Source of the DNA: Bacillus sp. FJAT-22090
GTDB taxonomy: Bacteria > Bacillota > Bacilli > Bacillales_A > Planococcaceae
DNA length: 64,000 nucleotides
NCBI RefSeq assembly: GCF_001278755.1
Contig: NZ_CP012601.1
Location: 2,666,001-2,730,000 of the forward strand
Direction of reading: 5' to 3'
Shown piece after piece: positions 9,021 to 40,821 of this stretch. Both the position numbers and the translations under genes were made by a program. The stretch's first letter is position 1. Each line of letters opens with the position of its first letter. The notes under the pieces were generated by a model. That model saw nothing but the letters and a program-made list of their open reading frames with translations. It had not been told where the DNA came from and searched no databases.

Positions 9021-9097
9021 AACTAACCTCTCCCTTTACTCCTATTAGTCACCGACTGACTATTTAAAGAATCTTCGACTAAACCACCCGTTAGTTT
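9021..9097 (+). repeat. attC-like repeat R1 (degenerate left box)
   Basis: Right box GACTAAACCACCCGTTAGTTT at 9077-9097 (one base off the family); a decayed left box begins AACTAACCTC at 9021. It lies just 3' of the gene at 9122 and is the leftmost copy of the family. Confidence 0.7.
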
Positions 9098-9121
9098 AAT
9101 ATGAAAAGCTTCTTCTTTTCC

Positions 9122-9835
9122 TCATTTTTCATTAGCTATCTCCATTAACTTAGATGACAGAGCACCTGTGCCATCGCTAAACATAATTTTACCTATTTTT
9201 CCGTCTTCCGGGCATATTGCTTCCCCTTTAAAATCATAAGATGTAACATCTCCATTTGCCTCTTCAAGTTTTACTCGAAATGTAAATCGATATATAGTCG
9301 GATGGTCTTTTTCTTGATTAATTTTTAGATTCTCCACATGTAGTTTATAATTTATATCTTCTCTTTGATAGAAGAAAGCTGAAGTAGAATTTAAAAAATT
9401 AATAAAACCATTTTCAGTAAAATATGCTTTATACTTTTCTTCGGCATACCGATATACTGCATCTCTTTCCTTTTCTGCCAACTTATTACGGTCCTTTAGT
9501 TCTTTTTTTGACACTTCTTCCCATAATTTAAGATACTCTTTATCAGGTGCTGTGAATTCTTTTTCAATGACAGTTTGGATAGCTTTCACACTATTATTAT
9601 TCTCTTTCCCAATAATGCCAGCTTCATTATTATTTAAAGTCTGGTTGATTAACGAAAATACTAGAAAAAAGCAACCAACTATCATAACTATTGATATGAA
9701 AATTGGTGTTATACGTTGCTTCTTTTTGCTTAGTTTATTATTAATTTTTATTAGACTGTTTCTACGTGCTTCATGGGAACGGTCGACATGCTGCATTTCT
9801 TGGAAAAGTTTATCAAGCTCTTTTGATGAATTCAT
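9122..9835 (-). CDS. Membrane-anchored probable anti-sigma factor
   Basis: 237 residues: a cytoplasmic N-terminal 45 residues, one transmembrane helix (IFISIVMIVGCFFLVFSLI, about 45-63) and a large extracellular part with no recognised domain. The start overlaps the end of the ECF sigma gene by about 20 bases, the standard arrangement for a sigma factor and its membrane anti-sigma partner. RBS GGAAGG lies 8 bases upstream. Family assignment rests on position and topology; no clear zinc anti-sigma (HxxxCxxC) motif is present. Confidence 0.65.
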   Translation of the reverse strand: MNSSKELDKLFQEMQHVDRSHEARRNSLIKINNKLSKKKQRITPIFISIVMIVGCFFLVFSLINQTLNNNEAGIIGKENNNSVKAIQTVIEKEFTAPDKEYLKLWEEVSKKELKDRNKLAEKERDAVYRYAEEKYKAYFTENGFINFLNSTSAFFYQREDINYKLHVENLKINQEKDHPTIYRFTFRVKLEEANGDVTSYDFKGEAICPEDGKIGKIMFSDGTGALSSKLMEIANEK

Positions 9836-10343
9836 CTATCAAACCTTCCTTTCCATAATATTCTTTTTTTAAAGTTTCTAATCCCCTTGCCATTTTTGTT
9901 TTCACCTTTGCTTCAGTCCAACCTAATATATATGCAGTTTCTTTAATGGAACACTCATTCACTTTTCTAAGTATTATTACATCTCTATAGTCCTTTTTCA
10001 TTCTACCTAAAGCGGCATACAATCTAGATAAATCCTCTTTCTTTTCTGCTAGAACTGTTGGTGATGGATTTTTAGAATCTATATCATTTTCATTTCCCCA
10101 TGTGAAAAACTTAATAAGTCTTTTCCTTCTAAAGTAGTCATAAGTTACATTTCGTGCTATTTTCAACAGCCACGTTAAGACAGAAGCTTGGTTGTTAAAA
10201 TTGTTGATGCTTTTTATAGCTTTATAAAAAGTTTCTTGCGTTAAATCTTCAGCTGTTTCTTTATGACGTACGAGAAAATAAATAAATCGATAAACTGCAT
10301 CACTATTATCGATATACAAGCGTTCTACATCCTCTTTCATCAT
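9813..10343 (-). CDS. ECF-type RNA polymerase sigma factor
   Basis: 176 residues. Region 2 shows YRFIYFLVRHKETAEDLTQETFYKA (core binding and -10 recognition), then LLKIARNVTYDYFRRKR; region 4 shows a helix-turn-helix (ECSIKETAYILGWTEAKVKTKMARGLETLK). The start is the ATG at 10343, with AAGGGG six bases upstream; an ATG eight codons earlier would place the RBS inside the coding frame. It is co-transcribed with its likely anti-sigma gene and would respond to an envelope signal. Confidence 0.92.
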   Translation of the reverse strand: MMKEDVERLYIDNSDAVYRFIYFLVRHKETAEDLTQETFYKAIKSINNFNNQASVLTWLLKIARNVTYDYFRRKRLIKFFTWGNENDIDSKNPSPTVLAEKKEDLSRLYAALGRMKKDYRDVIILRKVNECSIKETAYILGWTEAKVKTKMARGLETLKKEYYGKEGLIDEFIKRA

Positions 10344-10471
10344 TTTCAACCCCTTCTTACAAATCATAGACGATGGACTATATGAAAAGTATCGTTTTCT
10401 TTAAAATTAAAATTCTTATTTATTATGATTAATACATTAGCTATAAATATCTTCATCACTAAAACAAAATA

Positions 10472-10506
10472 ATCGTATTTAAGAGAGACACTCTCTTAAA
10501 TACGAT
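10472..10506. promoter_or_regulatory. Perfect palindrome, 16-bp arms with 3-base loop
   Basis: ATCGTATTTAAGAGAG (10472-10487) is repeated in perfect inversion at 10491-10506 around ACA. It lies 129 bases upstream of the ECF sigma gene and downstream of the small gene at 10696. T-runs after either arm are weak, so it may be an operator or a terminator. Confidence 0.6.
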
Positions 10507-10605
10507 TTATACGACCTCTCTGATATTGGACTGCATCTTTATTGTCTCTGCATTAGGAAAATTTTATATTTTAAAAGATTTGAGAACCACCGCTATTTCT
10601 TGTTG

Positions 10606-10683
10606 AACTAAACTGACCGATAGTTATATAAGAAAAAGAGCCATTTAAGGAGCTCAACGTTCTTAAAGTAAAGATCCAGTTTG
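10606..10683 (+). repeat. attC-like repeat R2 (decayed right box)
   Basis: Left box AACTAAACTGACCGATAGTT at 10606-10625, the short-type AAGAAAAAGAG...GAGCTC middle and TTCTTAAAGTAAAG in the right-box position. It lies between the sigma gene and the 60-residue membrane protein gene. Confidence 0.65.
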
Positions 10684-10695
10684 TAGTATTCCTTT

Positions 10696-10878
10696 TTATT
10701 TATCGCTATCTAAATCATTTTCAAGTAATTCCTGCAATGACTTTTTATCTTCTTTAAATCCATGCTTCTTTTCAAGAAACTGACCAATAACAGAATTATT
10801 AATACCCTTTCTGACAGCAGCTTCTCTAACTATATAGAGAACTAACAAGGAAATAATATATAGAACAATAGGCTCCAT
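10696..10878 (-). CDS. Small membrane protein, unknown
   Basis: 60 residues: one N-terminal transmembrane helix (PIVLYIISLLVLYIV) and a charged tail (FKEDKKSLQELLENDLDSDK). TAGGAGGATTTTAG before the ATG is a very good RBS, supporting a real gene. Flanked on both sides by family repeats, so it has the layout of a single-gene cassette. Confidence 0.65.
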   Translation of the reverse strand: MEPIVLYIISLLVLYIVREAAVRKGINNSVIGQFLEKKHGFKEDKKSLQELLENDLDSDK

Positions 10879-11019
10879 CTAAAATCCTCCTAAAATCTAC
10901 AACCACTTAAGATAATATGTATTATTTGAGATATTTCCCAGTCTTAGTACCATATTATTTCGACACATTAATTCTTTTTTCCTTCTTTAAATAATACCCT
11001 TAAAGGCAGCTTCTTGTTC

Positions 11020-13354: not shown

Positions 13355-13423
13355 GACTAACTGCTTCACAATTTGTTTCAAATTCTCCACTCCAACATCT
13401 TTCACTAAAGCACCCATTAGTTT
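13355..13423 (+). repeat. attC-like repeat R4
   Basis: Right box ACTAAAGCACCCATTAGTTT at 13404-13423 is one base from consensus; a decayed left box GACTAACTGCTTC starts at 13355. The flank AAGTAGAATCCTTCACAA after it recurs after other copies. Confidence 0.6.
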
Positions 13424-14079: not shown

Positions 14080-14100
14080 TGCTAAAGCACCCGTTAGTTG
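14080..14100 (+). repeat. attC-like repeat R6 (right box only)
   Basis: TGCTAAAGCACCCGTTAGTT, two bases from consensus. It lies 69 bases past the stop of the cat fragment and about 127 bases upstream of the VOC start. No left box recognised. Confidence 0.6.
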
Positions 14101-14169: not shown

Positions 14170-14592
14170 TTAACGGTTCATTTCAAGTTGCAGTATTTCA
14201 AAAAATAACGTCACATGATAGCCATCTACTGTTGCATGATGAACCTTAATATTCACTGGCATTAGCAATTGTGAACCAACTTTTTCGTACTTCCCACTGG
14301 TAATCATTGGTGTTAAATTATTTTTGATAGCTCCTGTTTGAGATGAAAAATGTTCAAAATGCATCCAAGGAATTGATGAAATATTCACCACGTTGGGTGG
14401 AACAACTCCCATTGGTGCGATGTCTTTTGTGTTTGCATAATCTTTTATAAGCTTTTTGTACTCACGGTCAACTGATTTATAATCTGTTAATCCTTCCAAC
14501 CATAAACTATAAAATAACTCTGTTTCTTGATTAAAGTTCGTAAACGTTGGCACTAATTCTTGCCATTCTACTAATTGCTTATCTATGTCTTT
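14170..14592 (-). pseudogene. 5'-truncated chloramphenicol acetyltransferase (cat-like)
   Basis: The open frame begins after a TAA at 14593-14595 and lacks the first third of the roughly 215-residue family. What remains is well preserved: WMHFEHFSS, LTPMITSGKYEKVGSQLLMPVNIKVHH and the catalytic-site segment HHATVDGYHV with its His and Asp. No RBS precedes the GTG at 14553. It is therefore a broken resistance gene of the kind typical of mobile cassettes, unlikely to make active trimer. Confidence 0.75.
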
Positions 14593-14765: not shown

Positions 14766-16163
14766 TTACTTATACGGAATATTAAATTCAATACGTGCCC
14801 CCGATAACACTAAGGGATCTACAACTTCAATGTTTCCGTATAGTTCATCAACAAGTTTTTTAGTAATAAACAAACCTAAACCAGCGTTACCCAACGAATT
14901 AGATCTTGATCTATCTTCCCTAAAGTGTTTGGAAAACACCAAATCACGGTGTTCCTTTTCTATTCCCACTCCCGAATCCTCAATGGCGAAATGAATGTAA
15001 TTGCCTTTTTCCTTAACAAAAAAACGAATTTTTCCATTTTCCGGCGTATATTGAATAGCATTGGCAAAAAGATTCTCTAAGATTCGATTGACCTTTAGGT
15101 AAGGAATTTCCACGTGATTATTTATTTTCAAATTATGCTCATATTGAATATTTTTCTTTTCCATTAAGTGAATAAAATCATTTTCCACGTCTTTGATTAA
15201 TTCATCAATAGATGTAACATCATAAATCAGTGTTGGATCCTTGATGTTACTTGCTTGTCCCATACTTTCTAATATATTATTTACCTTTAAGATGTTTCTA
15301 TTTATAATGTCTATCTGTAATTGTTGATTAGGTGTTAAATCGTCCACATTATTTAACATTTCAGTACTTAAAGCAATGAGTGTAGCAGGTGTTTTTAGAT
15401 CGTGTGACAAGCTAGACATCATAACTGCCCACTCTGAGTCGTGTTGCCAATTTTTATATAAAGACTTCTTTAGTTCTCCTTGCATTTGTCTAAATGACTG
15501 TGTTAATTCGCCAATTTCATTATTACTATTATAACTAAGGTTAAATTCCAAATTTTTATTTTTAATCATAATCGACGCATTTAATAACTCCTCCAAAGGA
15601 GCTTTTACGGAATAATAAAGCTTATTAATAAAGGATCTCGAAAATATAATGAAATAAATAATCGGTGATATTAAAGGGATAATTATTAACCCAAACATAA
15701 TATAGCGAGAAACAGAATGCCGACTTTTTATCTGATAAGAATAAACCCAAAGTCCTTTAACTTGATTTTCAATTACTATTGGCTGGACGAGATGATAGTA
15801 ATCTTTGTAAAAATGAGCACTATTAAACATATCAACAACATTTACTCCCTGAAATAAACCACTGAATTTTTCACTACCATCAATGAACTCACCATTGGGG
15901 CTAAATTTGTTTAGGATGATATCATTCTTTTTCAGATTCCTTTTCATCTCATTGAATTTAGACGACTTCATATATTCGGATGGATGATCCGTCATGCTTT
16001 TGCTCTGTTTATGGACTAGTTTTTCACTATGATTAGCTGTCCGTTCAATAGTTGCAAAAATAACAAAAATTGAAATAATAATTGTAAATACACTCATTAT
16101 AATAGTCCATATTATGCTTTTGATATATAACCTTCTTATATCCTTGATTATTGACTGTTCCAT
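14766..16163 (-). CDS. Sensor histidine kinase of lantibiotic-immunity type (LanK-like)
   Basis: 465 residues: helix 1 (about 12-40), an extracellular sensor loop (to about 150), helix 2 (IMFGLIIIPLISPIIYFIIF), a HAMP-like linker, HisKA box SSLSHDLKTPATLIALSTEML (phospho-His) and HATPase with N box FANAIQYTP, G1 DSGVGI and G2 NAGLGLFITKKLV. The ATG at 16163 is preferred over a TTG six codons upstream. Last gene of a five-gene operon with response regulator and LanFEG-like transporter, the SpaK/NisK arrangement, so it probably senses a lantibiotic at the membrane. Confidence 0.88.
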   Translation of the reverse strand: MEQSIIKDIRRLYIKSIIWTIIMSVFTIIISIFVIFATIERTANHSEKLVHKQSKSMTDHPSEYMKSSKFNEMKRNLKKNDIILNKFSPNGEFIDGSEKFSGLFQGVNVVDMFNSAHFYKDYYHLVQPIVIENQVKGLWVYSYQIKSRHSVSRYIMFGLIIIPLISPIIYFIIFSRSFINKLYYSVKAPLEELLNASIMIKNKNLEFNLSYNSNNEIGELTQSFRQMQGELKKSLYKNWQHDSEWAVMMSSLSHDLKTPATLIALSTEMLNNVDDLTPNQQLQIDIINRNILKVNNILESMGQASNIKDPTLIYDVTSIDELIKDVENDFIHLMEKKNIQYEHNLKINNHVEIPYLKVNRILENLFANAIQYTPENGKIRFFVKEKGNYIHFAIEDSGVGIEKEHRDLVFSKHFREDRSRSNSLGNAGLGLFITKKLVDELYGNIEVVDPLVLSGARIEFNIPYK

Positions 16164-16843
16164 TGGTACCCTATTCCCCAAACGGTTTGTAGATAATTTT
16201 CAGGAAAACCGGCAGACAATAATTTACTTCTTATATTTTTAATATGCTCCACTACAGAACTTGCATCTCCTTGTCCATCAATTCCACTTATACGCTCATA
16301 TATATGTTCTTTGGTAAAAACCTGCTTTGGCGATGAAAGTAACAAGACCAATAAATCAAATTCTTTTTTAGTAAAGGGGATCACCTTTTTATTATACATA
16401 ATCTCTCGTGAAGTTATATCAACAACTAGGTCGTCAATCAATATTTTTTTTCGTTTACTTTCATCATGATTTTGCAGAAGACGTTCTCTCATTTTAAATA
16501 AGGCTTCAACCTTATATGTTAACAGCTTCAAGGAGAAAGGTTTAGATATAAAATCATCACCTCCTAAAGAAAATGCCTTCATCTTATTCATATAATCTGA
16601 AGCAGCACTAATGAATATTATTGGGCAAATTACTTGATTACGAATTTGTTTGCACACTTCTAATCCATCATACCCTGGCATCATGATATCCAGCAGAATT
16701 AAGTCAACATCTGCTTCTGCCTTATCAATCGCTTCTAAGCCATCTTTTGCTTCCGAAACTATATACCCCTTGGAAGTCAGATGAAGCGAGAGTATCTGTC
16801 TCATGTCTTCTTCGTCTTCCACAATCAATATTTTCTTATTCAC
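16148..16843 (-). CDS. OmpR-family response regulator (LanR-like)
   Basis: 231 residues: a receiver domain with acidic pocket EDEED, phospho-Asp in DLILLDIMMPGYDG and a conserved Lys (SKPFS), then a winged-helix output domain ending VVEHIKNIRSKL...LQTVWGIGYQW. GTG start after GGGAGGACAATTA, overlapping the end of the permease gene by 8 bases. It presumably activates its own operon on lantibiotic sensing. Confidence 0.92.
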   Translation of the reverse strand: MNKKILIVEDEEDMRQILSLHLTSKGYIVSEAKDGLEAIDKAEADVDLILLDIMMPGYDGLEVCKQIRNQVICPIIFISAASDYMNKMKAFSLGGDDFISKPFSLKLLTYKVEALFKMRERLLQNHDESKRKKILIDDLVVDITSREIMYNKKVIPFTKKEFDLLVLLLSSPKQVFTKEHIYERISGIDGQGDASSVVEHIKNIRSKLLSAGFPENYLQTVWGIGYQWNSQ

Positions 16844-17537
16844 TAATTGTCCTCCCCTCCCATTTATTAAACCATATTACAAATGCTACGAATAAAATCA
16901 CACTCACACTAGTGTATAGCCCCCACACCAAAGTGGAATATCCATAGTCACCAATGGTTAGCAGATGTAAATATCTTGTGCCATACAGTAAAGGAATGTA
17001 CTGCCATATGGAATCCCCTAAACTGTTTGCACCAAAATAGATAAGAAATATACTGAAAAAGATTCCCATACCGAGACATACACTTGTATTTATTTTTAGT
17101 GCTATGAACCATAAAATAATTATAACGGGTAAAGAAAATATCGTTGTTAAAATAGAATATAATAAAATATCCCCTGTGAAATGATTACCAATAAGCATCC
17201 ATAATGGTATGCAACTAACTAATGTACTGAACATAACCGAACCTAAACTTACCAAAATTAAATCCGTACTCCACTCTTTTCTGCTTCGCAACTGTAAAAG
17301 GTGATTGAAGTGTCCTATCTGTTCTTCGTATCTAACATACAGACTTATCATTAGCGAAATACCAAATGGTATTGCACTATTAAAATAGACCGTATAGTCA
17401 ACGAATATATGGTTTAGAGAATCATACCTCTCAAGATATAAAAATAAGCTAACACCATATATAGTAGGAGCTAAAATCATTATAAGAAACCAAAAGGATT
17501 TTGCCATTTTATAAAGCATAACATTTAAATATTTCAT
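16836..17537 (-). CDS. Lantibiotic-immunity ABC permease, MutG/LanG type
   Basis: 233 residues with six predicted helices, polar N-terminus and the overall look of MutG/EpiG permeases (SLMISLYVRYEEQIGHFNHLLQLRSRKEW amphipathic loop between helices 2 and 3). It overlaps the LanE-like permease gene by 4 bases upstream and the response regulator downstream. With the ATPase and other permease it would form an exporter that removes lantibiotic from the membrane. Confidence 0.82.
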   Translation of the reverse strand: MKYLNVMLYKMAKSFWFLIMILAPTIYGVSLFLYLERYDSLNHIFVDYTVYFNSAIPFGISLMISLYVRYEEQIGHFNHLLQLRSRKEWSTDLILVSLGSVMFSTLVSCIPLWMLIGNHFTGDILLYSILTTIFSLPVIIILWFIALKINTSVCLGMGIFFSIFLIYFGANSLGDSIWQYIPLLYGTRYLHLLTIGDYGYSTLVWGLYTSVSVILFVAFVIWFNKWEGRTISE

Positions 17538-18286
17538 ATATACATCTTCCTTTTAAAAATCTTATTGGATAACCACATTAAAATTAGGAAATATACCACA
17601 CTAACTCCCATAGCTATAGCTAAAACATGAAAGTCTGGTACTAAATTGAAGTTTTCAATGGGTGTACCATTAGGATGGATTCCCATTGTTTCCGCTGGTA
17701 CCCTTAACATACTTCCCCAAGGAAGAACCCAAAAATAAGATTTTAAAGCGATAAACACTGAGCCGACGGCACCAATCAGGTTTATTAGAGTCGTCATAAG
17801 TACACCGATATACTTGCTTACAATTAAACTGAAAGGAATTAATGGTAAAGCAACAATCATTATGAACGCTGTTGTCATAATTACTTGGGGTATGATTGGC
17901 AATTCATTATATATTAGCAATGAACCCAATATAGACGCAGCAGCTATCAATACTGCCGAGATACATTGGTAAATTAAAATTACAACAACTTTAGAAAAAA
18001 ACATTTTGGATAAAGATATGTTGTTTGACAAAACGTTTTTATAATCACCAATTTTTTTCTCTTGATTAATATTCATCCCACATGCCATAGCCAAACCCAC
18101 AGGCAGGAAAAATATAGGCCAAAGATTATAAACAATTGTTAAAAAAACATTTGTAGACGGCTGTTGCTCCGCATATATATTTGAAAAAATAGCAAAGGCT
18201 AGAAAGAAAATTGGAATAGCTAAAAGTAATTTCTTCGATAAAGATGATTTCATTTTTAATAATTCAGCTTGAATAAAATTAGACAT
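17534..18286 (-). CDS. Lantibiotic-immunity ABC permease, MutE/EpiE (LanE) type
   Basis: 250 residues, six helices, beginning MSNFIQAELLKMKSS, a typical ABC-2 start. The block NQEKKIGDYKNVLSNNISLSKMFFSKV after helix 2 is the usual Glu-rich cytoplasmic loop of this family. Two bases separate it from the ATPase gene upstream and it overlaps the LanG gene by 4 bases, so stoichiometric translation is likely. Confidence 0.82.
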   Translation of the reverse strand: MSNFIQAELLKMKSSLSKKLLLAIPIFFLAFAIFSNIYAEQQPSTNVFLTIVYNLWPIFFLPVGLAMACGMNINQEKKIGDYKNVLSNNISLSKMFFSKVVVILIYQCISAVLIAAASILGSLLIYNELPIIPQVIMTTAFIMIVALPLIPFSLIVSKYIGVLMTTLINLIGAVGSVFIALKSYFWVLPWGSMLRVPAETMGIHPNGTPIENFNLVPDFHVLAIAMGVSVVYFLILMWLSNKIFKRKMYI

Positions 18287-18288
18287 AC

Positions 18289-30128: not shown

Positions 30129-30541
30129 TATCTCATCTCCTTTCCTCTACATTCTATCTATTTCAAAAATATCCTTTATTTTGTAAATTAATTGAGTCTG
30201 GTAACGAGATATTAATCTATCACCACAATTTTGATATCACTCGAAAATGGTTACACTCAAAGGGCATAGTGTTTATACCCATCCCCTACAAACAATCCAA
30301 CAGGTTATAGGTGTATGTTCATAGCATATTCTTACAATTACTTAACATAAACATGATTGGTTAAAAAAACACCACTACCATAGCGATAGGGTGTAAACCT
30401 ATAACATTTCACAATGGAACGCCGAAATCTATTTGATTTTTTAGACATAAAAATAGACCAACGAAATGATGGTCTTGTTTAACTAAAGCTACCGTTACTT
30501 GAAGTACATTATTTCAATTCTAACAATAAGCACTCCAAAAA
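30129..30541. other. 413-base gap with repeat R14
   Basis: Holds the metallopeptidase promoter region and R14; no gene seen. CCACTACCATAGCGATAGGGTG (30372 on) is unassigned. Confidence 0.5.
30395..30500 (+). repeat. attC-like repeat R14 (long type, left box lost)
   Basis: ATAACATTTCACAA, CGCCGAAATCTATTTG, hairpin AGACCAACGAAATGATGGTCT and right box AACTAAAGCTACCGTTACTT at 30481-30500. Confidence 0.75.
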
Positions 30542-31056: not shown

Positions 31057-31095
31057 AAGCTAACCTTAAAGTAATCTTATGGAATCTTCTTGTTC

Positions 31096-31115
31096 AACTA
31101 AAGCACCCGTTAGCT
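31096..31115 (+). repeat. attC-like repeat R15 (right box only)
   Basis: AACTAAAGCACCCGTTAGCT, one base from consensus, followed by TAAGTGAATAAATTCACAA. It lies between the rsgA remnant and the UDPGP gene. Confidence 0.7.
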
Positions 31116-31242
31116 TAAGTGAATAAATTCACAAACTTGTTTTATTACATCTTATAAAAAGTGCTCCCAAAATCGATTAGAAAACAAGGACCTTTGTGAT
31201 CCTTGTTTGGGTTTTAAACAAATCTCACTTTTATATAGAATC

Positions 31243-32472
31243 TTAGAATATGTCTCTTTTATCATTCTGCAAAATCATCTTTCTTGCACTCTCCAAACTA
31301 TCTAGTCCTATTCTGTTTTTTACTGGTGCAAATTCGGTCTCCCTTAATACTTGTAATACAGACATGCTCTCAGCATATTGAAATATATCGAAATAAAACT
31401 TTTCGAGCTTATATCCATTCGGCTTAATAATTTTGATTGTCTGACCAATTTCATTAACTGAGGGAATAATTTTATGAGCAAAGTGATAAGGGAGTTCAAC
31501 ATCCATAGTTTTCTCAAGGAATGAAAGTTGAAAAAGATGAATACCTATGTTTGCATTTGTAAATTTTTCTCCCTCACTTTCTTCTTTACTCATTTCAGAG
31601 TATTCGATAACCGAAGGCTTACCTTCAGATAAGCAAAAAACTCCTACTTTCTCACTGGGTTCTCTCTTTTTCACAGATTTACTGGATACTTCTGCACCTT
31701 TTAGATCAGCAAAACCAATAAACAAGGGGTCTGCAACTTGAACAAGAGCATTGTCAATATTATTAAAAAAAACCCACTTAATACCCTTCATCTTTAAGTC
31801 CTTAAGTATCCCACTAGACTTCATTGCAGCAAATACCCCTCCGTTTCCATTAGGGGACATAGAGATTTTTGATTTACTCTCAAGAATTATTTTACCATTA
31901 GGAGTTAACGTTGGAATAAGGTCCTGTTTAAAGAAAAAAATCTGTTCCGGTTTACAATTGAAATAATCGTTTTCTTTGAAAAACTTCTTTGTTTCCAATT
32001 CATTGATAGGGCTAGTCATAATATACCAGGGAATAATAGATTTTGTTTTTTCTTCTATCTTTCGCAGTCTCTCAGCTTGTAAAGCGAAAAGCGATTGATT
32101 GGAAGATACGCCAATGCTAACGGTTCCTTTAGGTCCATCATGTCCAAGTCGAGTTCCCTGTCCTCCAGCAATGAGTACCACTGCTACTTTCTTTTCTTTT
32201 AGAAGTTTAAGTCCGTGTTCTTCATACATCTTTCTTTTAGAGTCACTAAGGCTTAGGACAGATTCATATTCGATAGGTAAAATTTTTCCTTTACTATTGT
32301 TTGGTGGAATAGAAAGTTGACTGGATGCATCTTCAATTTCTTCAAAATCAATTTCATTTATTTGATTTATTAAAGCTTCTTTCTCTTTTGGCTTTAATAC
32401 ATTATAAAAGGAAAGAAGATGTCCTTGTCCAAAACGATTTATTTTTTCTCTTATGTATTCCAGTCTTTCCAT
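31243..32472 (-). CDS. UDP-sugar pyrophosphorylase family protein (UAP1/UDPGP type)
   Basis: 409 residues. LIAGGQGTRLGHDGPKG is the nucleotide-binding loop of UDPGP-family uridylyltransferases, MSPNGNGGVFAAM binds the sugar and WVFFNNIDNALVQVADP holds the metal-binding Asp. Length and motifs fit the eukaryotic-like UDP-N-acetylhexosamine/UDP-glucose pyrophosphorylases found in some Bacillales, distinct from GalU and GlmU. It activates a sugar 1-phosphate with UTP. Flanked by R15 and R16; at 1.2 kb one of the larger cassette-like units. Confidence 0.88.
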   Translation of the reverse strand: MERLEYIREKINRFGQGHLLSFYNVLKPKEKEALINQINEIDFEEIEDASSQLSIPPNNSKGKILPIEYESVLSLSDSKRKMYEEHGLKLLKEKKVAVVLIAGGQGTRLGHDGPKGTVSIGVSSNQSLFALQAERLRKIEEKTKSIIPWYIMTSPINELETKKFFKENDYFNCKPEQIFFFKQDLIPTLTPNGKIILESKSKISMSPNGNGGVFAAMKSSGILKDLKMKGIKWVFFNNIDNALVQVADPLFIGFADLKGAEVSSKSVKKREPSEKVGVFCLSEGKPSVIEYSEMSKEESEGEKFTNANIGIHLFQLSFLEKTMDVELPYHFAHKIIPSVNEIGQTIKIIKPNGYKLEKFYFDIFQYAESMSVLQVLRETEFAPVKNRIGLDSLESARKMILQNDKRDIF

Positions 32473-32555
32473 ATCACTACTCCTTAGATTTTTTTTCCTA
32501 TAAACGCCTCACACTGAATGTTATTCGTAAAAAACATATACTGAATTCCTTCTTA

Positions 32556-32638
32556 AACTAAACTGCCCCGTTAGTTCAATAAGAGAAAAGAGCTGCCCTA
32601 AGCAGCCCAATGATCTTTAACTAAAGCACCCGTTAGTT
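32556..32638 (+). repeat. attC-like repeat R16 (intact, short type, 83 bp)
   Basis: Left box 32556-32576 (CTGCCCC spacer), hairpin GCTGCCCTAAGCAGC, right box AACTAAAGCACCCGTTAGTT at 32619-32638. Confidence 0.9.
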
Positions 32639-32660: not shown

Positions 32661-33236
32661 TCACTTTTTGAATAAGTTTGGTAGAACAATTTTCCATATA
32701 TCATTTTCTTTTTTTAATTCCATTAATGTTGAAGCTGTGAACCTTCCATAGCTAACCATTAATTCCACTAATAAACCATTATTATCTTCTTGTTTTACTT
32801 TGATTGAATCATAATATCTGAAATCTAAGGCTATTTCCGAGTTAGATATGTTAAGATTTTTGTAATATTTTTCTTTAAAATTATTGAAATTAGGTGACTC
32901 ACCTTCAATATAAGCCAACGAATAGATTGCTTCTATATCATCGATAACTGCTGAATGAATATATATAAGTATAATCTTTTCTGGTGAAAAACCTTTTAAG
33001 TATTTTGTATCATATTCCTCAGTAAATTGTTCATATGACTTTAATTCTTCTTCCGACAAGTCGGTTAAATAAGAAAACTCTTCTTCTGAGTCAACAATTT
33101 TTGATGCTTTTTCATCTACTATGCTGATTACATCTTCCTTTTTTGTTTCATTTGTTTCTACGGAATTACTTGGCGTACAACCAGTTAATAATAATAGTGA
33201 AGTTAAAAATACAAAGAGAGGAATACTAGATTTCAA
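32661..33236 (-). CDS. Lipoprotein, unknown
   Basis: 191 residues with a type II signal peptide (IPLFVFLTSLLLLTGC, lipobox LTGC) and a Ser/Thr/Glu-rich linker before a folded domain rich in acidic residues. TTG at 33236 follows AAAGGAG at 7 bases and gives a proper signal peptide, unlike the longer frame from 33266. No family recognised. Flanked by R16 and R17, a single-gene unit. Confidence 0.75.
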   Translation of the reverse strand: MKSSIPLFVFLTSLLLLTGCTPSNSVETNETKKEDVISIVDEKASKIVDSEEEFSYLTDLSEEELKSYEQFTEEYDTKYLKGFSPEKIILIYIHSAVIDDIEAIYSLAYIEGESPNFNNFKEKYYKNLNISNSEIALDFRYYDSIKVKQEDNNGLLVELMVSYGRFTASTLMELKKENDIWKIVLPNLFKK

Positions 33237-33306
33237 ATGAACTACTCCTTTCATGCCTACCCCCAATAAACTATATATTCTGCATTTCCCTAATTATTCC
33301 TTCTTC

Positions 33307-33388
33307 AACTAACCTGCTGCTTTAGTTCAATAAAGAAAAAAGAGTTGCCTAAGCAACCCTATGATCTTTACTTAAGCACCCGTTAGTT
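33307..33388 (+). repeat. attC-like repeat R17 (intact, short type, 82 bp)
   Basis: Left box 33307-33327, hairpin GAGTTGCCTAAGCAACCC, right box with TACTTAAGCACCCGTTAGTT at 33369-33388. Confidence 0.9.
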
Positions 33389-33444: not shown

Positions 33445-33783
33445 CTAACACATCAATTGATATGATTCTTTTAAAAGAACTAAAAACTCCTGATTTAGGT
33501 CATCTACACTATTGAGTCTAAAGTTATTATGAAATCTGTTTTTGGAAACTTGTTCAATTTTAGTAATCTTCTCGTGTTCAATTTGATGGTTTGTTACTAA
33601 ATTAAAATCTAACCATTTCTTTTTTGGATGAACTCCTCCAAAGGAAGATTTATTCAAAAGATGAATAGAAGTCTTTTTAAATTCAATTTCAAATGGTCCT
33701 ATTTCTTTCAATAAATCGAGTATTTTTGAATATATTTCATAAACATTAGATGCCTTATTTGAGAATAATTCCTCTTCTGACAT
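33445..33783 (-). CDS. DUF5655-like protein
   Basis: 112 residues. The segment EIEFKKTSIHLLNKSSFGGVHPKKKWLDFNL followed by RFHNNFRLNSVDDLNQEFLVLLKESYQLM resembles the DUF5655 domain, a small alpha-beta domain of unknown function related to YdhG-like proteins. Flanked by R17 and R18. Confidence 0.65.
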   Translation of the reverse strand: MSEEELFSNKASNVYEIYSKILDLLKEIGPFEIEFKKTSIHLLNKSSFGGVHPKKKWLDFNLVTNHQIEHEKITKIEQVSKNRFHNNFRLNSVDDLNQEFLVLLKESYQLMC

Positions 33784-33862: not shown

Positions 33863-33944
33863 AACTAACCTGCTGCGTTAGTTCAATAAGAAAAAAGAGC
33901 TGCCTAAGCAACCCCATGTTCTTTAACTAAAGCACCCGTTAGTT
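33863..33944 (+). repeat. attC-like repeat R18 (intact, short type, 82 bp)
   Basis: Left box 33863-33883, AAGAAAAAAGAGCTGCCTAA, right box AACTAAAGCACCCGTTAGTT at 33925-33944. It ends 8 bases before the stop codon of the gene at 33953. Confidence 0.9.
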
Positions 33945-34254: not shown

Positions 34255-34274
34255 AACTAAAGCACCCGTTAGTT
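34255..34274 (+). repeat. attC-like repeat R19 (right box only)
   Basis: Perfect consensus AACTAAAGCACCCGTTAGTT; CTAGCAGCTTAACTATCTTT before it may be the eroded middle. 15 bases past the stop of the gene at 34290. Confidence 0.75.
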
Positions 34275-34289: not shown

Positions 34290-34712
34290 TTATTTCGCTT
34301 CAACAACAAAACTTGTATAATTTTTTTCATCAATAGTTATATCAATTTTCCATAACCCTAATTTGTCAAATCCGAATTTCGCTGCATTCTGTTCCTTTTC
34401 AATATTTTTTTCATGAAGTTTGACAGTTTCACCAGTTTCTTGATGTGTAGCCGTCATTTTGTATTTTTTTCCATTAAATTCTTCCGAACTATCCAAGAAG
34501 TAAACTTCATAAAGTCTTCCTTGTGTTACTGGAAACTCAGGTTCATTGCTTTCACCATTTACTTTAATAATACCAAATTTCCCTTCAGTTCCATGCAAAG
34601 TTAGATTATCGACATCGAATGTAGGACTTAGATACCAATCTCCATCATTTTCTTCTGTACACCCTAATAGTAATAAAACTAAAACAAGCAATAGAAAACT
34701 TATTCTCTTCAA
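34290..34712 (-). CDS. Lipoprotein, unknown
   Basis: 140 residues; type II signal peptide ending LLLGC at residues 14-18. The mature part looks like a single beta-sandwich (FPVTQGRLYEVYFLD, KMTATHQETGETVKLH, LGLWKIDITIDEKNYTSFVVEAK), the look of an extracellular Ig-like domain. No family recognised. A single-gene unit between R19 and R20. Confidence 0.75.
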   Translation of the reverse strand: MKRISFLLLVLVLLLLGCTEENDGDWYLSPTFDVDNLTLHGTEGKFGIIKVNGESNEPEFPVTQGRLYEVYFLDSSEEFNGKKYKMTATHQETGETVKLHEKNIEKEQNAAKFGFDKLGLWKIDITIDEKNYTSFVVEAK

Positions 34713-34842: not shown

Positions 34843-34968
34843 AACTAAACTGCTGCGTTAGTTTAAGTGTAACATTTCACAAACGATCGTCGAAAACTAC
34901 TTGATAATCTAAAGATAAAAATAGACCATCAAAATGATGGTCTTGTTTAACTAAAGCATCCGTTAGTT
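34843..34968 (+). repeat. attC-like repeat R20 (intact, long type, 126 bp)
   Basis: Left box 34843-34863, GTGTAACATTTCACAAACG, hairpin AGACCATCAAAATGATGGTCT, right box AACTAAAGCATCCGTTAGTT at 34949-34968. Confidence 0.9.
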
Positions 34969-34982: not shown

Positions 34983-35339
34983 TTATTCCCCCGGCATAAT
35001 CCCTATCACTTCTAATGTGTTCGGGTCAACAAATACAAGTGGTGCAGCAAGTGCATCTACTTTCGTAACTACAAATATTTCTTTCCCTATATATGATTCA
35101 TCTAAATTTTTATATGTTTCATCAGCCGTAAATATTTTCACAGATGCGTTTTCCCATTCATTTACCGAGTTAAGTTGATTCGAATTCTTTTGTTTGAAAT
35201 ATTCTACTACCACATTTCTGACCTTGGTATCTATATCATTTTTTTTCACTTCGTTACCTTCTACTTCATTTTTTGTACAAGCCGTGACAAAGAGTGAAAT
35301 AAAGATTAGCATAAAAAACCAGACATGTTTCGCTTTCAA
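34983..35339 (-). CDS. Lipoprotein, unknown
   Basis: About 118 residues; signal peptide VWFFMLIFISLFVTAC with lipobox VTAC. The mature domain (VRNVVVEYFKQKNSN, EIFVVTKVDALAAPLVFVDPNTLEVIGIMPGE) resembles a small PepSY- or cystatin-like fold but is not assigned. TTG at 35339 lies 9 bases after a G-run RBS; GTG at 35345 is the alternative. Single-gene unit between R20 and R21. Confidence 0.72.
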   Translation of the reverse strand: MKAKHVWFFMLIFISLFVTACTKNEVEGNEVKKNDIDTKVRNVVVEYFKQKNSNQLNSVNEWENASVKIFTADETYKNLDESYIGKEIFVVTKVDALAAPLVFVDPNTLEVIGIMPGE

Positions 35340-35398
35340 AAACACACCCCCCTTTTCAATAAGTCGTTTTTGACAGTAGTTTTGTTACTCCACTGTTC

Positions 35399-35478
35399 AA
35401 CTAAACTGCTGCGTTAGTTCAATAAGAAAAAGCTACCCTTACAGGCAGCCACATGCTTAACTAAAGCACCCGTTAGTT
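35399..35478 (+). repeat. attC-like repeat R21 (intact, short type, 80 bp)
   Basis: Left box 35399-35419 (CTGCTGC spacer), middle AAGCTACCCTTACAGGCAGC, right box AACTAAAGCACCCGTTAGTT at 35459-35478. Confidence 0.9.
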
Positions 35479-35748: not shown

Positions 35749-36945
35749 GTGAGCATTCAAAGTTTTTATTACACAATCACAAGTTCTAGATCATTTTTTA
35801 TTCAAATGGTATTCACATTAAATGCTATTTATTATGTAACGCAAGCAGATTTAAATGCATTGCAACTGGTTCTAATCGGCACAATCATGGAAGTTTCCGT
35901 TCTATTGTTTGAAATGCCAACAGGCTTGTATGCAGATCACTATGGACGAAAACATTCTCTCGCACTGGGCACAGTTATTATTGGGTTGGCACATGTACTT
36001 GAAGGGAGTACGCCAGAATTTTGGGCGATTGCTTTAGCTTCTGCGATGTGGGGAATAGGCTGGACCTTCATAAGTGGGGCTGAACAAGCATGGATTGCGG
36101 ATGAGTTAGAAGGCGAAAACTTAGACACCACGTTCCTTCGTGGTTCACAATTTTCATCTTTTGCACGTTTTGCAGGAATTGTGGCCAGTGTGGCGATTGC
36201 GACCTTTTGGTCGGTGCAAACGGCGATTATATTTGCAGGTGGCATGCTGATTGCCCTTGCAGTCTGGGCATTCATTAAGCTACCCGAAACCAAATTTGTC
36301 AAAGTAACACGTGAAAAAGGTGTCTCGGGTGTCACTCATATGGTTACCACCATCAAGGTTGGCCTATCACAGATTCGCGGGAACACTGTGCTAATTAGTA
36401 TAGCAATGGTTACGTTATTATGGGGGCTTGCCAGCGAAGGATTCGACCGTTTATATGGTACCCATTTCATTACTGACTATAATTTGTCAGAAAACGAGTC
36501 CATCTATTGGTTCGGTGCTTTTTATGCGGTTGCATTTTTACTTAATATTGTCGTACTACGTTTTGTTGAGAAAAATGCGAAAGGTCGCTACGCAGATGCG
36601 CTATTACTGACAAATGCAGTGTTGACAGGAACGATGCTTATTTTCGCATGGACCGGTCATTTCTGGGTAGCTGTGGTGATGTACTGGGTGACAAGTGCAC
36701 TGAGAAACGTAAACTACCCGTTAATGAGCATCATTACAAATGAACAAATTGAATCAAAAGGTCGAGCAACCACACTTTCCATGTTCGGGCAACTAGATGC
36801 TTTTGGCCAAATTGTTGGGGGTCCAATAGTAGGGTTGTTAGCATTATATACAACAATTGCAGGAGGCATCTCGGCATCTGCATTCCTGATTTTACCCGTT
36901 CTTTATTTCTTGTGGCGAATGAAGCGAAAAATGGTTCTTTCATAA
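35749..36945 (+). CDS. MFS drug-efflux-type transporter (DHA3-like)
   Basis: 398 residues, about twelve helices, with motif A TGLYADHYGRKHSLALG after helix 2 and an acidic motif GAEQAWIADELEGENL typical of DHA3-type macrolide/tetracycline exporters. GTG start at 35749. It is one of the few plus-strand genes in the repeat array, with its own promoter, leader peptide, attenuator and terminator, as expected of a self-contained resistance cassette. Drug specificity cannot be read from the sequence. Confidence 0.88.
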   Translation: MSIQSFYYTITSSRSFFIQMVFTLNAIYYVTQADLNALQLVLIGTIMEVSVLLFEMPTGLYADHYGRKHSLALGTVIIGLAHVLEGSTPEFWAIALASAMWGIGWTFISGAEQAWIADELEGENLDTTFLRGSQFSSFARFAGIVASVAIATFWSVQTAIIFAGGMLIALAVWAFIKLPETKFVKVTREKGVSGVTHMVTTIKVGLSQIRGNTVLISIAMVTLLWGLASEGFDRLYGTHFITDYNLSENESIYWFGAFYAVAFLLNIVVLRFVEKNAKGRYADALLLTNAVLTGTMLIFAWTGHFWVAVVMYWVTSALRNVNYPLMSIITNEQIESKGRATTLSMFGQLDAFGQIVGGPIVGLLALYTTIAGGISASAFLILPVLYFLWRMKRKMVLS

Positions 36946-37071: not shown

Positions 37072-37142
37072 AACTAAACTGCTGCGTTAGTTGAAGAAGA
37101 GTCTCCAATGCAACTCGCTTCTTCAATACAAGCCTAACTGAT
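37072..37142 (+). repeat. attC-like repeat R22 (right box decayed)
   Basis: Left box 37072-37092 is intact (CTGCTGC spacer); the middle is AAGAAGAGTCTCCAATGCAACTC and the right box is reduced to CAATACAAGCCTAACTGATG. Confidence 0.75.
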
Positions 37143-37196: not shown

Positions 37197-37712
37197 TTAT
37201 CTTCCTAGTTTATTATCAATTTCAGTTGTATTTACATTCTCCCCAAATAAATCTTTTAGTTTATTTTTGGCTTGCATTTTAATTTCATCATCCACATATA
37301 AAGCTACTTGAACTAAAGCGAATATTACAACACTTAAGTCATCAGCATATCCTACACCAACTGCTAAGTCGGGTATAATATCTAGAGGTAAAATAAAGTA
37401 ACCTAAAGCCCCAACAATGGTTGCTTTAACTTTTAGTGGTACATCTGGCTTTTGAAGTGTGTAATAAAGTAATAAAACGGCGTAGACTACAGAAGTTCCA
37501 GATCTTTTAGAAAATTTTTGAACCTTAGTCCAAAACTTTTCCTCTGAGAAATGCTCTTCGTGTTGGTTTATATCTTCAGCATTCAATTTTTCTGCTTCAT
37601 CTTTTAACTCAGCAACTAGTTTTTCTTCAATTTCAATTTCGTCTACTTCAACAATATTAGTTGAAGATAATTCGTCTAGATCTGTTTTCTTCTTAAATAG
37701 ATTTTTAAACAT
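37197..37712 (-). CDS. YkvA/DUF1232-family protein
   Basis: 171 residues: a Glu-rich N-terminal extension (about 1-75) and a DUF1232 core TLQKPDVPLKVKATIVGALGYFILPLDIIPDLAVGVGYADDLSVV with its signature Pro-Asp cluster in a hydrophobic hairpin. Function unknown, probably membrane associated. CTTGGAGTGATTTT precedes the ATG. Follows R22. Confidence 0.85.
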   Translation of the reverse strand: MFKNLFKKKTDLDELSSTNIVEVDEIEIEEKLVAELKDEAEKLNAEDINQHEEHFSEEKFWTKVQKFSKRSGTSVVYAVLLLYYTLQKPDVPLKVKATIVGALGYFILPLDIIPDLAVGVGYADDLSVVIFALVQVALYVDDEIKMQAKNKLKDLFGENVNTTEIDNKLGR

Positions 37713-38297: not shown

Positions 38298-38354
38298 GTC
38301 AAATGCGACATATGAACTCCCATTTTCTTCTTCAACTAAACTGCCCCGTTAGTT
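38298..38354 (+). repeat. attC-like repeat R23 (left box plus shared 36-bp flank)
   Basis: Left box with CTGCCCC spacer at 38334-38354. The preceding GTCAAATGCGACATA...AACTCCCATT stretch matches that before R7. No right box; the rest is lost. Confidence 0.7.
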
Positions 38355-38403: not shown

Positions 38404-39234
38404 TCAAACTGTGCGAAAATTGGTTTTAAGCAATCGGTGAGCTTTTTGTGTATTTAGAGACGTATCGAAAGATAGATAAGGGGCATCTTCTTTAGAAATT
38501 ATAATTGGACGGAGAATGCTATTATTCCATCCAAGTTGTACCAATCTCTTTTTATAAAACGTATAGTAGCTTTCTTTATGTATGGGTCCAGCATGCAAAA
38601 TTCCATTAAATTTTATATTAGTCAATTCAATAATCGTACTTGATAAATCATTAACATTTACAAAAGTTCTATACACATTTGTATATGCATCAAATGGCTG
38701 ATTCTCTTTTATTTTCTCGATTATTTGTATGGTTCGTTTTTCAATACCTTGATCCCCATTATTACCATAAAGTGGTCCAGTTCGAAGTATCACGTGATTT
38801 GGATGTTTATTGAGAATTAAGTTTTCTCCAGTATGTTTACCGTTCACATACTCAGCTAAAACTGCTTCTTTAGGCAATGTCCCAATTGGGTCAGATTCTT
38901 TGTAACCACCAATTCCTTCAACAAAAACTGCATCCGTTGATAGAAATATAAGTTTTGTTGCACTCTCTATTTCTGATAATAAATTTTCGAGCCCTAAATT
39001 GATTAATTGGGTTTCTTCTTCAAAACTCATTAGTGACCATATAACTACTTCTGGATTTATTTTTCTAATGACACTTCCTATTGAACGTTTGTTTGTAACA
39101 TCTACTTGCATAATATTAGAGTTTTCATGTTGAAAACGTGAGGTACCAAACACTGTTAGATTTTTGTTCTCTGAAGCCAGTTGGAATAAATTCGAGCCCA
39201 AAAAGCCAGTTGCTCCTAATATAAGTATTCTCAT
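38404..39234 (-). CDS. NAD(P)-dependent sugar-nucleotide reductase/epimerase (RmlD-like extended SDR)
   Basis: 276 residues: Rossmann motif LILGATGFLGSNLFQLA, the strand VIWSLMSF, the catalytic-region STDAVF (Thr/Asp) and RTGPLYGNNG as in dTDP-4-dehydrorhamnose reductases. The YxxxK pair appears as EYVNGKHTGENL. AAGGAAGGTTAT precedes the ATG. It would reduce or epimerise a nucleotide sugar; no other rml gene is near. Between R23 and R24. Confidence 0.82.
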   Translation of the reverse strand: MRILILGATGFLGSNLFQLASENKNLTVFGTSRFQHENSNIMQVDVTNKRSIGSVIRKINPEVVIWSLMSFEEETQLINLGLENLLSEIESATKLIFLSTDAVFVEGIGGYKESDPIGTLPKEAVLAEYVNGKHTGENLILNKHPNHVILRTGPLYGNNGDQGIEKRTIQIIEKIKENQPFDAYTNVYRTFVNVNDLSSTIIELTNIKFNGILHAGPIHKESYYTFYKKRLVQLGWNNSILRPIIISKEDAPYLSFDTSLNTQKAHRLLKTNFRTV

Positions 39235-39299: not shown

Positions 39300-39377
39300 A
39301 ACTAACCTGCCCCGTTAGTTGAAGAAAAAGAAGACGCCAAAGCATTTCAACGTTCTTCATGTAAAGCCCAAACAAAG
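39300..39377 (+). repeat. attC-like repeat R24 (right box decayed)
   Basis: Left box 39300-39320 (CCTGCCCC spacer), middle AAGAAAAAGAAGACGCCAAAG, right position TGTAAAGCCCAAAC. Confidence 0.75.
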
Positions 39378-39385
39378 AACAAGAC

Positions 39386-39889
39386 TTAATTATTTTTCTT
39401 AAAAGCAAACATCGTTTCTAAAGTATCTGATAATATATCCTTTCGTCGTTCTATTTCATTTAACTCTTCTTTTACCTCAATAATACAGTTCAATAAAACT
39501 TCATCTGATATTTCACCTTTAATTGATTCTATCAATTGATATGCTTGTGCTTGTACTTCAAAGTTTCCATTTATCAAATGGTAAATTAGTGTTTCTAAAT
39601 GTGCTGAACAATTGAATGGTTCTAGTGCGTATAATAGTGTTCCTCTAAAACCTAAAGTTTTTGGGTCATTAATAACATCTATTAACGGTTGTACCACTTC
39701 TTCGTCCCCAATATCACTTAACGTTAATGCAATGGAGTTTCTAAATAAAGCATTTTCTGTACTTTGTAAGTATTCAATAAGTAGAGGAATTGCTTGAATG
39801 TCCTTACTTCTGCTAATTTCCTCTAAAATGATTTCTGCATCATCAAACTTTTCATTTTCTATTGCCAACCTTAATGAATTATTGTCCAT
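39386..39889 (-). CDS. HEAT-repeat protein
   Basis: 167 residues forming four or so HEAT/PBS-lyase-like helical pairs (AIPLLIEYLQSTENALFRNSIALTLSDIGDEEVVQPLIDVIND). A protein-protein interaction scaffold; partner unknown. Small HEAT proteins of this type are common as orphan accessory genes. Between R24 and R25. Confidence 0.8.
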   Translation of the reverse strand: MDNNSLRLAIENEKFDDAEIILEEISRSKDIQAIPLLIEYLQSTENALFRNSIALTLSDIGDEEVVQPLIDVINDPKTLGFRGTLLYALEPFNCSAHLETLIYHLINGNFEVQAQAYQLIESIKGEISDEVLLNCIIEVKEELNEIERRKDILSDTLETMFAFKKNN

Positions 39890-39954
39890 AATAATTATCC
39901 GAACTCCTTGTCATTTACCGTAATTAAACTTAGATTAAAATACTGTTCTTCTTC

Positions 39955-40036
39955 AACTAAACTCCCCCGTTAGTTCAAAAAGAAAAAAGAGTTGCCTAAG
40001 CAACCATGTGTTCTTCAACAAAAGAACCCATTAGTT
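39955..40036 (+). repeat. attC-like repeat R25 (intact, short type, 82 bp)
   Basis: Left box 39955-39975 (CTCCCCC spacer), hairpin GAGTTGCCTAAGCAACC, right box AACAAAAGAACCCATTAGTT at 40017-40036. Confidence 0.85.
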
Positions 40037-40049
40037 GAATATGGACTAC

Positions 40050-40214
40050 TTATTTTTTTGTTTCTAATTCATTTATTAACTTGCAAAGATAGCCAACGAT
40101 ATATTCTCTTTGAGTCGTTTCTTCAATGTCATTATTTTCTACAAGGTCATTAATTCCTTTATTAATAATGTCCCATAAATTTGTTCCTTCAAATATTTCA
40201 TATGGATGTGTCAT
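40050..40214 (-). CDS. Small hypothetical cassette protein
   Basis: 54 residues (MTHPYEIFEGTNLWDIINKG start, YIVGYLCKLINELETKK end), acidic and helical, unrecognised. The AGGAGGTTATAGTT before the ATG is an excellent RBS and the frame fills the interval between R25 and R26 (stop 13 bases from R25), so it is very likely expressed. Confidence 0.65.
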   Translation of the reverse strand: MTHPYEIFEGTNLWDIINKGINDLVENNDIEETTQREYIVGYLCKLINELETKK

Positions 40215-40274
40215 ATAACTATAACCTCCTTGTTTATCTACTGATAGTATTTCGTTAATAGATATGTCTTCTTC

Positions 40275-40355
40275 AACTAATCTGCTACGTTAATTCAAAA
40301 AGAAAAAAGAGTTGCCTATGCAACCCATAATCTTCAACTAAAGCACCCGTTTGTT
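40275..40355 (+). repeat. attC-like repeat R26 (intact, short type, 81 bp)
   Basis: Left box AACTAATCTGCTACGTTAAT at 40275, hairpin GTTGCCTATGCAAC, right box AACTAAAGCACCCGTTTGTT at 40336-40355. Changes in the two outer arms (TTAATT, TTTGTT) are independent of each other. Confidence 0.85.
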
Positions 40356-40375
40356 CAACGAGAATAAGATATCGT

Positions 40376-40723
40376 TTAGTCTCCAGCAATATGTACCCTG
40401 CCTATTTCCGAACTGGACAATTGTTTTATAAATTCTTCAAATTCGTTAAGTTTATTTATCGAAATATATACTTTGTAATTATTAAGGTCTGTTATTAGGT
40501 TGGAAAGTCTCTCTCCTGAAAATGTTTCATTAGTAAGATAAAAATCGCTTAGTCTTCTAAGTTCCAAATAACTACGCCACAGCTTCTTAGAATTAAATAT
40601 TTCATTATGTAGACTTTCACTCAACTCGTATAATCCAATCTCTCTACCTTTTTGATCATATAAGACCACATCAAATCCCAAATGCAGTGCCCTCCTTAAA
40701 TAACAATTACTTAACTTTACCAT
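40376..40723 (-). CDS. Hypothetical protein
   Basis: 115 residues, unrecognised: begins with a short beta region (FDVVLYDQKGREIGLYELSE) and continues as long helices (SKKLWRSYLELRRLSDFYL). RBS AGGAGGAAT overlaps the edge of repeat R27, only 16 bases separating start codon and repeat; the stop is 21 bases from R26. The tight packing is that of a cassette. Confidence 0.7.
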   Translation of the reverse strand: MVKLSNCYLRRALHLGFDVVLYDQKGREIGLYELSESLHNEIFNSKKLWRSYLELRRLSDFYLTNETFSGERLSNLITDLNNYKVYISINKLNEFEEFIKQLSSSEIGRVHIAGD

Positions 40724-40738
40724 ATAGATTCCTCCTTC

Positions 40739-40821
40739 AACTAACCTGCTTCGTTAGTTGAAAAAGAAAAAAGAGCTACATTGCAACTCAATGAACTCTT
40801 CAACTAAAACACACGTTTGTT
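40739..40821 (+). repeat. attC-like repeat R27 (intact, short type, 83 bp; rightmost copy)
   Basis: Left box 40739-40759 (CCTGCTTC spacer), AAGAAAAAAGAGCTACATTG, right box AACTAAAACACACGTTTGTT at 40802-40821. No copy is found from here to the window end at 64000. Confidence 0.85.

Follow-up and report, generated by a model that had tools for sequence, protein, structure and literature searches.

The region between positions 9077 and 40821 of a 64,000-nucleotide stretch of the Bacillus sp. FJAT-22090 chromosome (NZ_CP012601.1, positions 2,666,001 to 2,730,000; hereafter the window) belongs, with a probability that we put at about 0.82, to an integron-like gene-cassette system of Bacillales that is dispersed over several islands, of which this is one, and that has a dedicated recombinase of the Xer type. 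The system works like an integron, yet it is not a canonical one. The array, the attI-like site and the exchange at the boxes described here are read from sequence evidence. An initial annotation of the window had proposed that a site-specific recombinase built the region unit by unit, and this proposal is supported by unit ends that fall at the boxes, by an attI-like box, by an empty locus in a relative and by the co-occurrence of boxes and recombinase. The region had also been called an integron cassette array, which holds for the order, orientation and cargo of the units but not for the enzyme, which is Xer-type, nor for the sites, which consist of two boxes, nor for the layout, with boxes on both sides of the recombinase gene.

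Boxes and gene units in the window

At up to 4 mismatches, one strand of the window has 37 boxes, all between 9077 and 40821 (16 of type A and 21 of type B), and the opposite strand has a single 4-mismatch box, at 54139, while ten mononucleotide shuffles of the window gave 0-2 boxes each. Moreover, the motif GTTAGTT occurs 43 times in the window against 11.6 (standard deviation, SD, 3.4) in shuffles. The 37 boxes form 24 sites at 9.1-40.8 kb, namely 13 A+B pairs, eight B boxes alone and three A boxes alone, and degenerate copies were seen in a looser scan (up to 6 mismatches) at 9021, 10606/10666, 11020 and 13534. Taken together with these degenerate copies, the earlier count of about 27 repeats was a fair one. 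The single orientation of the copies (37 against 1) and the regular succession of repeat and gene at 31.1-40.8 kb are likewise real. Most of the array genes are encoded on the other strand from that on which the boxes were first read. The cargo consists of unrelated single genes in a one-orientation array, as in an integron, and the broken cat gene noticed before is indeed a truncated member of the chloramphenicol-acetyltransferase family (14170-14553 in the list below). The copies are confined to 9.0-40.8 kb as far as the window is concerned, save for the box at 54139, but not in the chromosome as a whole. The array is interrupted, since 14.1-20.3 kb, where a two-component system and an ABC transporter are encoded, has no boxes at 4 mismatches. 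The histidine kinase, response regulator and ABC transporter genes lie at 14766-18993, within the limits of the array, and are box-free between them.

Read on the gene strand, a site runs from the gene through B' (AACTAACGGGTGCTTTAGTT), a terminator and A' (AACTAACGnnGCAGkTTAGTT) to the next gene. The consensus over 116 elements is TCTTnTTCAACTAA CGGGTGCT TTAGTTAAAGAA for B' and TCTTATTGAACTAA CGnnGCAGk TTAGTTGAAGAAG for A'. The B' spacer is almost invariant (106-114 of the 116 at each position), whereas in A' two inner positions and an outer one are variable. The terminator units between B' and A' come in three main lengths. A terminator-like hairpin is present on the gene strand in all eight A+B elements at 31-41 kb, a segment with 13 hairpins in all against 4.3 (SD 2.2) in shuffles, and a run of at least four T was found in 105 of the 109 terminator units of the whole genome. 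Stretches of at least 180 nt from A' to B' numbered 112, with a median of 630 nt; 105 of them hold a frame of at least 180 nt, which is in the sense orientation in 97 cases.

The features of the array are listed by position in the window and strand.

9077-9096, minus: B' box alone (degenerate A' at 9021)
13403-13422, minus: B' box alone
14080-14099, minus: B' box alone
14170-14553, minus: gene unit, chloramphenicol-acetyltransferase family, first part lacking (profile positions 85-205 only matched)
20302-20383, minus: B' - terminator - A' element
23932-24055, minus: B' - terminator - A' element, long class
23934-24440, minus: stretch matching part of the 1.27 Mb island at 94.7% identity, A boxes at both ends
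24417-24478, minus: B' - A' element, short
25449-25468, minus: B' box alone
25538-26254, minus: gene unit, methyltransferase
26561-26687, minus: B' - terminator - A' element, long class
26767-27525, minus: gene unit, alpha/beta hydrolase, with copies 95-97% identical in the 3.45 and 3.93 Mb islands
27786-27805, minus: B' box alone
28067-28192, minus: B' - terminator - A' element, long class
28671-30128, minus: gene, M1 peptidase family
30481-30500, minus: B' box alone
31096-31115, minus: B' box alone
31093-32579, minus: gene-only unit with a UDPGP-family gene (31243-32472), 95.6% identical to a unit of the 1.25 Mb island, B and A box ends in both copies
32556-32638, minus: B' - terminator - A' element
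32661-33266, minus: gene unit, no Pfam match; stretch 88.8% identical in the 0.79 Mb island
33307-33388, minus: B' - terminator - A' element
33445-33783, minus: gene unit, DUF5655
33863-33944, minus: B' - terminator - A' element
34255-34274, minus: B' box alone
34290-34712, minus: gene unit, no Pfam match
34843-34968, minus: B' - terminator - A' element, long class
34983-35345, minus: gene unit, no Pfam match
35399-35478, minus: B' - terminator - A' element
35749-36945, plus: major facilitator superfamily (MFS) transporter gene, antisense to the array
37072-37092, minus: A' box alone
37197-37712, minus: gene unit, DUF1232
38334-38354, minus: A' box alone
38404-39234, minus: gene unit, RmlD-like NAD-dependent reductase/epimerase
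39300-39320, minus: A' box alone
39386-39889, minus: gene unit, HEAT repeats
39955-40036, minus: B' - terminator - A' element
40275-40355, minus: B' - terminator - A' element
40376-40723, minus: gene unit, no Pfam match
40739-40821, minus: B' - terminator - A' element, the last of the array

Exchange at the boxes

Comparisons were made within the genome and between species. Homologous cassette bodies lying in differing contexts gave 243 pairs, 18 of them covering more than 80% of both members. Islands of the same genome share 20 homologous stretches, and of their 80 ends 48 are no more than 35 nt away from the centre of a box, whereas 500 rotations of the boxes brought 5.2% of the ends near a box on average and 18.8% at most. 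Junctions that never coincide with boxes, which the initial annotation had named as evidence against its own reading, are therefore not what was observed. The right halves of A' travel with the unit; the variant GCAGGATAGTG, for instance, precedes one and the same gene both in the window and in the 1.27 Mb island, with differing left halves.

B' is a second exchange point because near-identical genes carry unlike terminator units. In four gene pairs with 93.7-98.8% identity (95-100% over the last 20 nt before B') the terminator units are only 39-51% identical. Random terminator units are 0.78 identical within a length class and 0.51 between classes, so that the swapped terminators, near the different-class level, are unrelated. 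Two other pairs retain the terminator (0.96-0.98) and one pair stands at 0.83.

The recombinase

The recombinase gene (1283040-1283882, 281 aa) is found in another island of the same chromosome. Two further copies exist, one at 959217-960059 with 95% identity and one at 1001880-1002593 that is truncated at the 5' end. In addition, a stretch at 853.3-853.9 kb (about 13330-13898 of L007) is 97.7% identical to 1001441-1002008 and extends into the 3' end of the truncated gene, so that the largest island contains a recombinase remnant.

The protein scores 222.4 bits on the XerA model NF040815, above the cut-off of 220, and 91.9 bits on the IntI model TIGR02249 against a cut-off of 265. XerA, the archaeal Xer recombinase, resolves chromosome dimers. 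None of the 21 TIGR02249 matches in the genome reached the IntI cut-off, and the integron-type enzyme expected at first is thus replaced by an Xer-type one. The recombinase is 28-31% identical to the other Xer-like proteins compared from its own genome and, judged by these alignments, is a third type beside them. The solved structures nearest to it by sequence are archaeal XerA and XerD, IntI4 being sixth. The LexA/SOS motif GAAC-N4-GTTC has a match with one mismatch in two of 21 recombinase upstream regions. The IntI-specific insertion (I2 domain), which we take to lie at positions 181-233 of the IntI model, corresponds here to 13 residues (189-201) against 53 model positions. This insertion has about 20 residues according to the accessible part of PMC4792948, and the accessible text of PMC8138268 describes it as not fully conserved among integron integrases.

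Of 261 genomes of the order, 61 have a relative of the recombinase at E <= 1e-100, as do 12 of 299 in a sample of the class, and a scan of named genomes gave 78 recombinase loci in many Bacillales genera, some genomes having more than one. The Sporosarcina psychrophila plasmid pSP10-266k (L205) encodes a recombinase 94% identical to that described here; this plasmid additionally carries mercury-resistance genes and group II introns. More distant recombinases, 58-66% identical and mostly one per genome (L072, L073, L206-L225), do not have the upstream A' box, and some of them have GCGCCCGATTGTTGAATAA-like half-sites about 150 nt upstream with CAAT..ATTG repeats nearby. These are possibly a sister system with other sites.

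The attI-like site

Of the 74 named loci used for this count (out of the 78), 37 have an A-type box upstream of the recombinase start, at a distance of 30-120 nt. By distance, the interval of 50-100 nt had 37 A-box hits and each remaining 50-nt bin up to 1 kb had 0-4; in 12 of 20 loci of relatives the nearest A-type box is 70-76 nt from the start codon. The leader, compared in loci where the box was found by pattern (18 of 21), is conserved up to the box with a mean pairwise identity of 0.62-0.66, and falls to 0.29-0.30, the level of chance, from 30 nt past the box start. Among 45 loci inspected, those of Neobacillus, Peribacillus, Mesobacillus, Litchfieldia and others have a varied form of this box (ACTATCG, AGTAACG) upstream of the recombinase. 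Position and leader break suggest that the upstream box is an attI-like site, so that a putative attI site stands beside the recombinase gene as it does in integrons. In 18 loci of relatives with a recombinase at least 85% identical, 324 of the 336 boxes point one way with respect to the recombinase gene, and this is the majority orientation in all 18.

Islands across the chromosome

A search for further copies, as the initial annotation had advised, gave 247 matches to the 20-base B box (up to 3 mismatches) in the 4.21 Mb Psychrobacillus chromosome and none to a reversed-pattern control. With positions listed for the first 100 of these and islands counted from the stretches retrieved, there are at least eight islands, at about 785-797, 839-900, 950-1002 (read in part), 1242-1302, 2675-2707 (the window), 3443-3449, 3464-3475 and 3918-3930 kb. 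Each has a single orientation (for instance 122 to 1, 35 to 0 and 71 to 1), and the random occurrence in both orientations that would have spoken against a cassette array was not found. Five further island stretches of the genome contain copies of window units, with identities of 88.8-96.6%. The cargo of the islands is mixed and includes transporters, GNAT, NUDIX, cupin and DUF families and many genes without a Pfam match. Among 20 sampled units of the other islands, nine had no Pfam match at all and ten had either none or only short unmatched frames.

Two further features of the chromosome were noticed. Genes resembling, by eye, TnsB, TnsC and TniQ, together with a tyrosine recombinase, lie between two oppositely oriented islands (L015, 43-7637), and the chromosome has four same-strand copies of a repeat near AACAATTGGGCCATATTGTTGAA, at 900889, 990280, 1045448 and 1066912.

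Related genomes

In one relative (G041) the left flank of the array (window to 8433) and its right flank (from 42866) are 2.6 kb apart, with other genes and no boxes between them; the five remaining relatives are less clear at this locus. At least seven B boxes are present in 32 of the 34 genomes with the recombinase, or a piece of it at least 79% identical, against 20 of the 166 without (Fisher p about 5e-21), and the medians over these 200 genomes are 46 and 1 boxes, respectively. Of five recombinase-bearing genomes outside the family, four had more A boxes than the reversed control (20 against 5, 17 against 0, 11 against 2 and 9 against 2), and three recombinase-less genomes had 2, 1 and 2 A boxes.

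Proposed mechanism and points against it

The Xer-type tyrosine recombinase of 281 aa encoded at 959.2 and 1283.0 kb would recognise palindromic core sites, probably in double-stranded form, in which arms of 12-14 bases (about TCTTATTGAACTAA / TTAGTTGAAGAAG) flank a spacer of 8-9 bases. It would join gene units, which start with the right half of A' and usually end with the left half of B' (AACTAACGGG), and also short terminator units that span B' to A'. New units, presumably as circle intermediates, could be inserted at the attI-like A' box, which lies about 70 nt upstream of that gene. Exchange of the kind A' x A' or B' x B' could remove or relocate units, and the latter would also give a gene a new terminator. 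The terminators may insulate the units from each other, and the array of the window, which contains no recombinase gene, would depend on a recombinase supplied in trans. We lean, by a small degree, towards regarding this as a second, independently evolved cassette-capture system held by Bacillales, Xer-type, with double-stranded core sites and with genes and terminators separately exchangeable.

Several results weigh against this explanation. Away from boxes are 32 of the 80 ends of homologous stretches, and one gene pair (90% identical) breaks before B'. In two pairs the two spacer bases differ despite the same left unit, and a further two pairs differ in the arm that follows the spacer on the right; as the variable bases do not always track the left unit, the crossover can be placed only within about six bases (about nnGCAG). 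By the pattern used, 37 of the 74 loci have no attI-like box. The one-sided layout of integrons is absent, as the 18 loci have 0.90 boxes per kb on the attI side (208 in 232.2 kb) and 1.05 per kb beyond the gene (116 in 110.7 kb). These two-sided boxes are the largest layout difference from an integron, and the equal density therefore points to tandem platforms or to a recombinase gene itself embedded in arrays. The third recombinase of the genome is truncated and has boxes on its far side only, in the stretch read. Among the genomes, 20 of 166 have at least seven boxes, and up to 134, with no recombinase detected; these include G041, G057, G078 and G135 of the same genus as well as G072 (134 boxes). 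Lost or unassembled recombinases could explain these exceptions. Finally, one recombinase-bearing genome outside the family (G350) has six A boxes against eight in the reversed control, and hence no excess.

Alternative explanations

The explanation that survives best beside the Xer-type system is a canonical integron, in which an IntI-family integrase recombines the folded bottom strand of attC and A' and B' are the outer and inner boxes of one site. The layout of paired boxes and genes, the single orientation and the attI-like box beside the recombinase agree with it, and boxes with 8 and 9 base spacers are able to pair mutually. We consider it improbable, as the recombinase falls short on the IntI model and passes the XerA one, no protein of the genome reaches the IntI cut-off, and exchange occurs at B' too. 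Moreover, inner-arm pairing is no better than with permuted partners overall (3.11 of 6 against 3.20, SD 0.06), with a slight excess within length classes (3.11 against 3.06, SD 0.03, and 4.71 of 10 against 4.59, SD 0.04), which suggests almost no attC-like covariation between the two boxes. The attC sites proposed at first are, as far as testable, two-box core sites around a terminator.

A terminator-bearing dispersed repeat, similar to repetitive extragenic palindromic sequences (REP) or miniature inverted-repeat transposable elements (MITE), could also have been transposed between genes that are themselves immobile. Hundreds of intergenic copies, each with a hairpin terminator, and several many-copy genomes without a detected recombinase would fit this, but it is very unlikely because gene units recur elsewhere with both ends at boxes, the lone box beside the recombinase marks the leader break, the islands have one orientation and the array-less relative G041 is also without the array genes. 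Relatives that share a gene order but differ in whether the element lies between the genes were not seen, in a search that was not systematic. The weakest candidate, still less likely, is a reshuffling of units by general homologous recombination without a site-specific recombinase: the long-class terminator units are alike enough (same-class mean 0.78) to offer short homology, but where a terminator was replaced by one of another class, the break falls within a 20-base box, the attI-like box and the arriving units share the box alone, and 20 bases are short for RecA-type exchange.

Comparison with known systems

Like integrons and superintegrons (IntI, attI, attC), the Xer-type system has long one-orientation arrays of mostly single-gene units, and its tyrosine recombinase is transcribed against the cassette genes with a site just upstream, at the end of a conserved leader. 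It differs from them in the Xer-type recombinase, which does not reach the IntI cut-off and lacks about 40 positions of the IntI-specific region, in two-box sites that enclose a terminator with exchange at both boxes, and in having boxes on both sides of the recombinase and islands scattered over the chromosome. Integrons have been described chiefly from Proteobacteria. The only complete integron of Firmicutes reported in the accessible part of PMC9024848 is that of Limnochorda pilosa, with a few clusters of attC sites lacking integron integrases (CALIN) elsewhere.

The dif modules of Acinetobacter plasmids (pdif, XerC/XerD) are similar in that genes lie between double-stranded Xer-type core sites, and near-identical spacers recombine there according to the accessible text of PMC13141974. 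In dif modules the sites alternate in orientation (C and D modules) and the host XerC/XerD are used, whereas here the sites are not inversely oriented in alternation (324 of the 336 boxes being co-oriented), the recombinase is dedicated and an attI-like site is present. By sequence, the arms (AACTAA/TTAGTT) are dissimilar to the pdif sites quoted in PMC13141974.

No earlier description of the system was found in the literature searched, which left out preprints and most subscription papers. An integron-like system that extends through the Planococcaceae and, as recombinase and attI-like box indicate, into genera such as Neobacillus, Mesobacillus, Peribacillus and Litchfieldia would change the picture of integron distribution. 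The origin of IntI from Xer-like ancestors and the formation of cassettes are presented as open questions in the accessible parts of PMC4792948 and PMC5371416, and the system bears on both. If it is indeed a second, independently evolved cassette-capture system, it would show the integron form without single-strand attC sites and would supply a step of cassette formation, in which B' exchange provides a free gene with a terminator unit. It would also explain islands of unrelated small genes otherwise dismissed as hypothetical clutter, and could yield a natural gene-stacking tool for Bacillus-type hosts.

Neighbouring feature

Beyond the array, a T-box leader (113 bits) was found at 44790-45009 of the window, upstream of the arginyl-tRNA synthetase gene at 45052.

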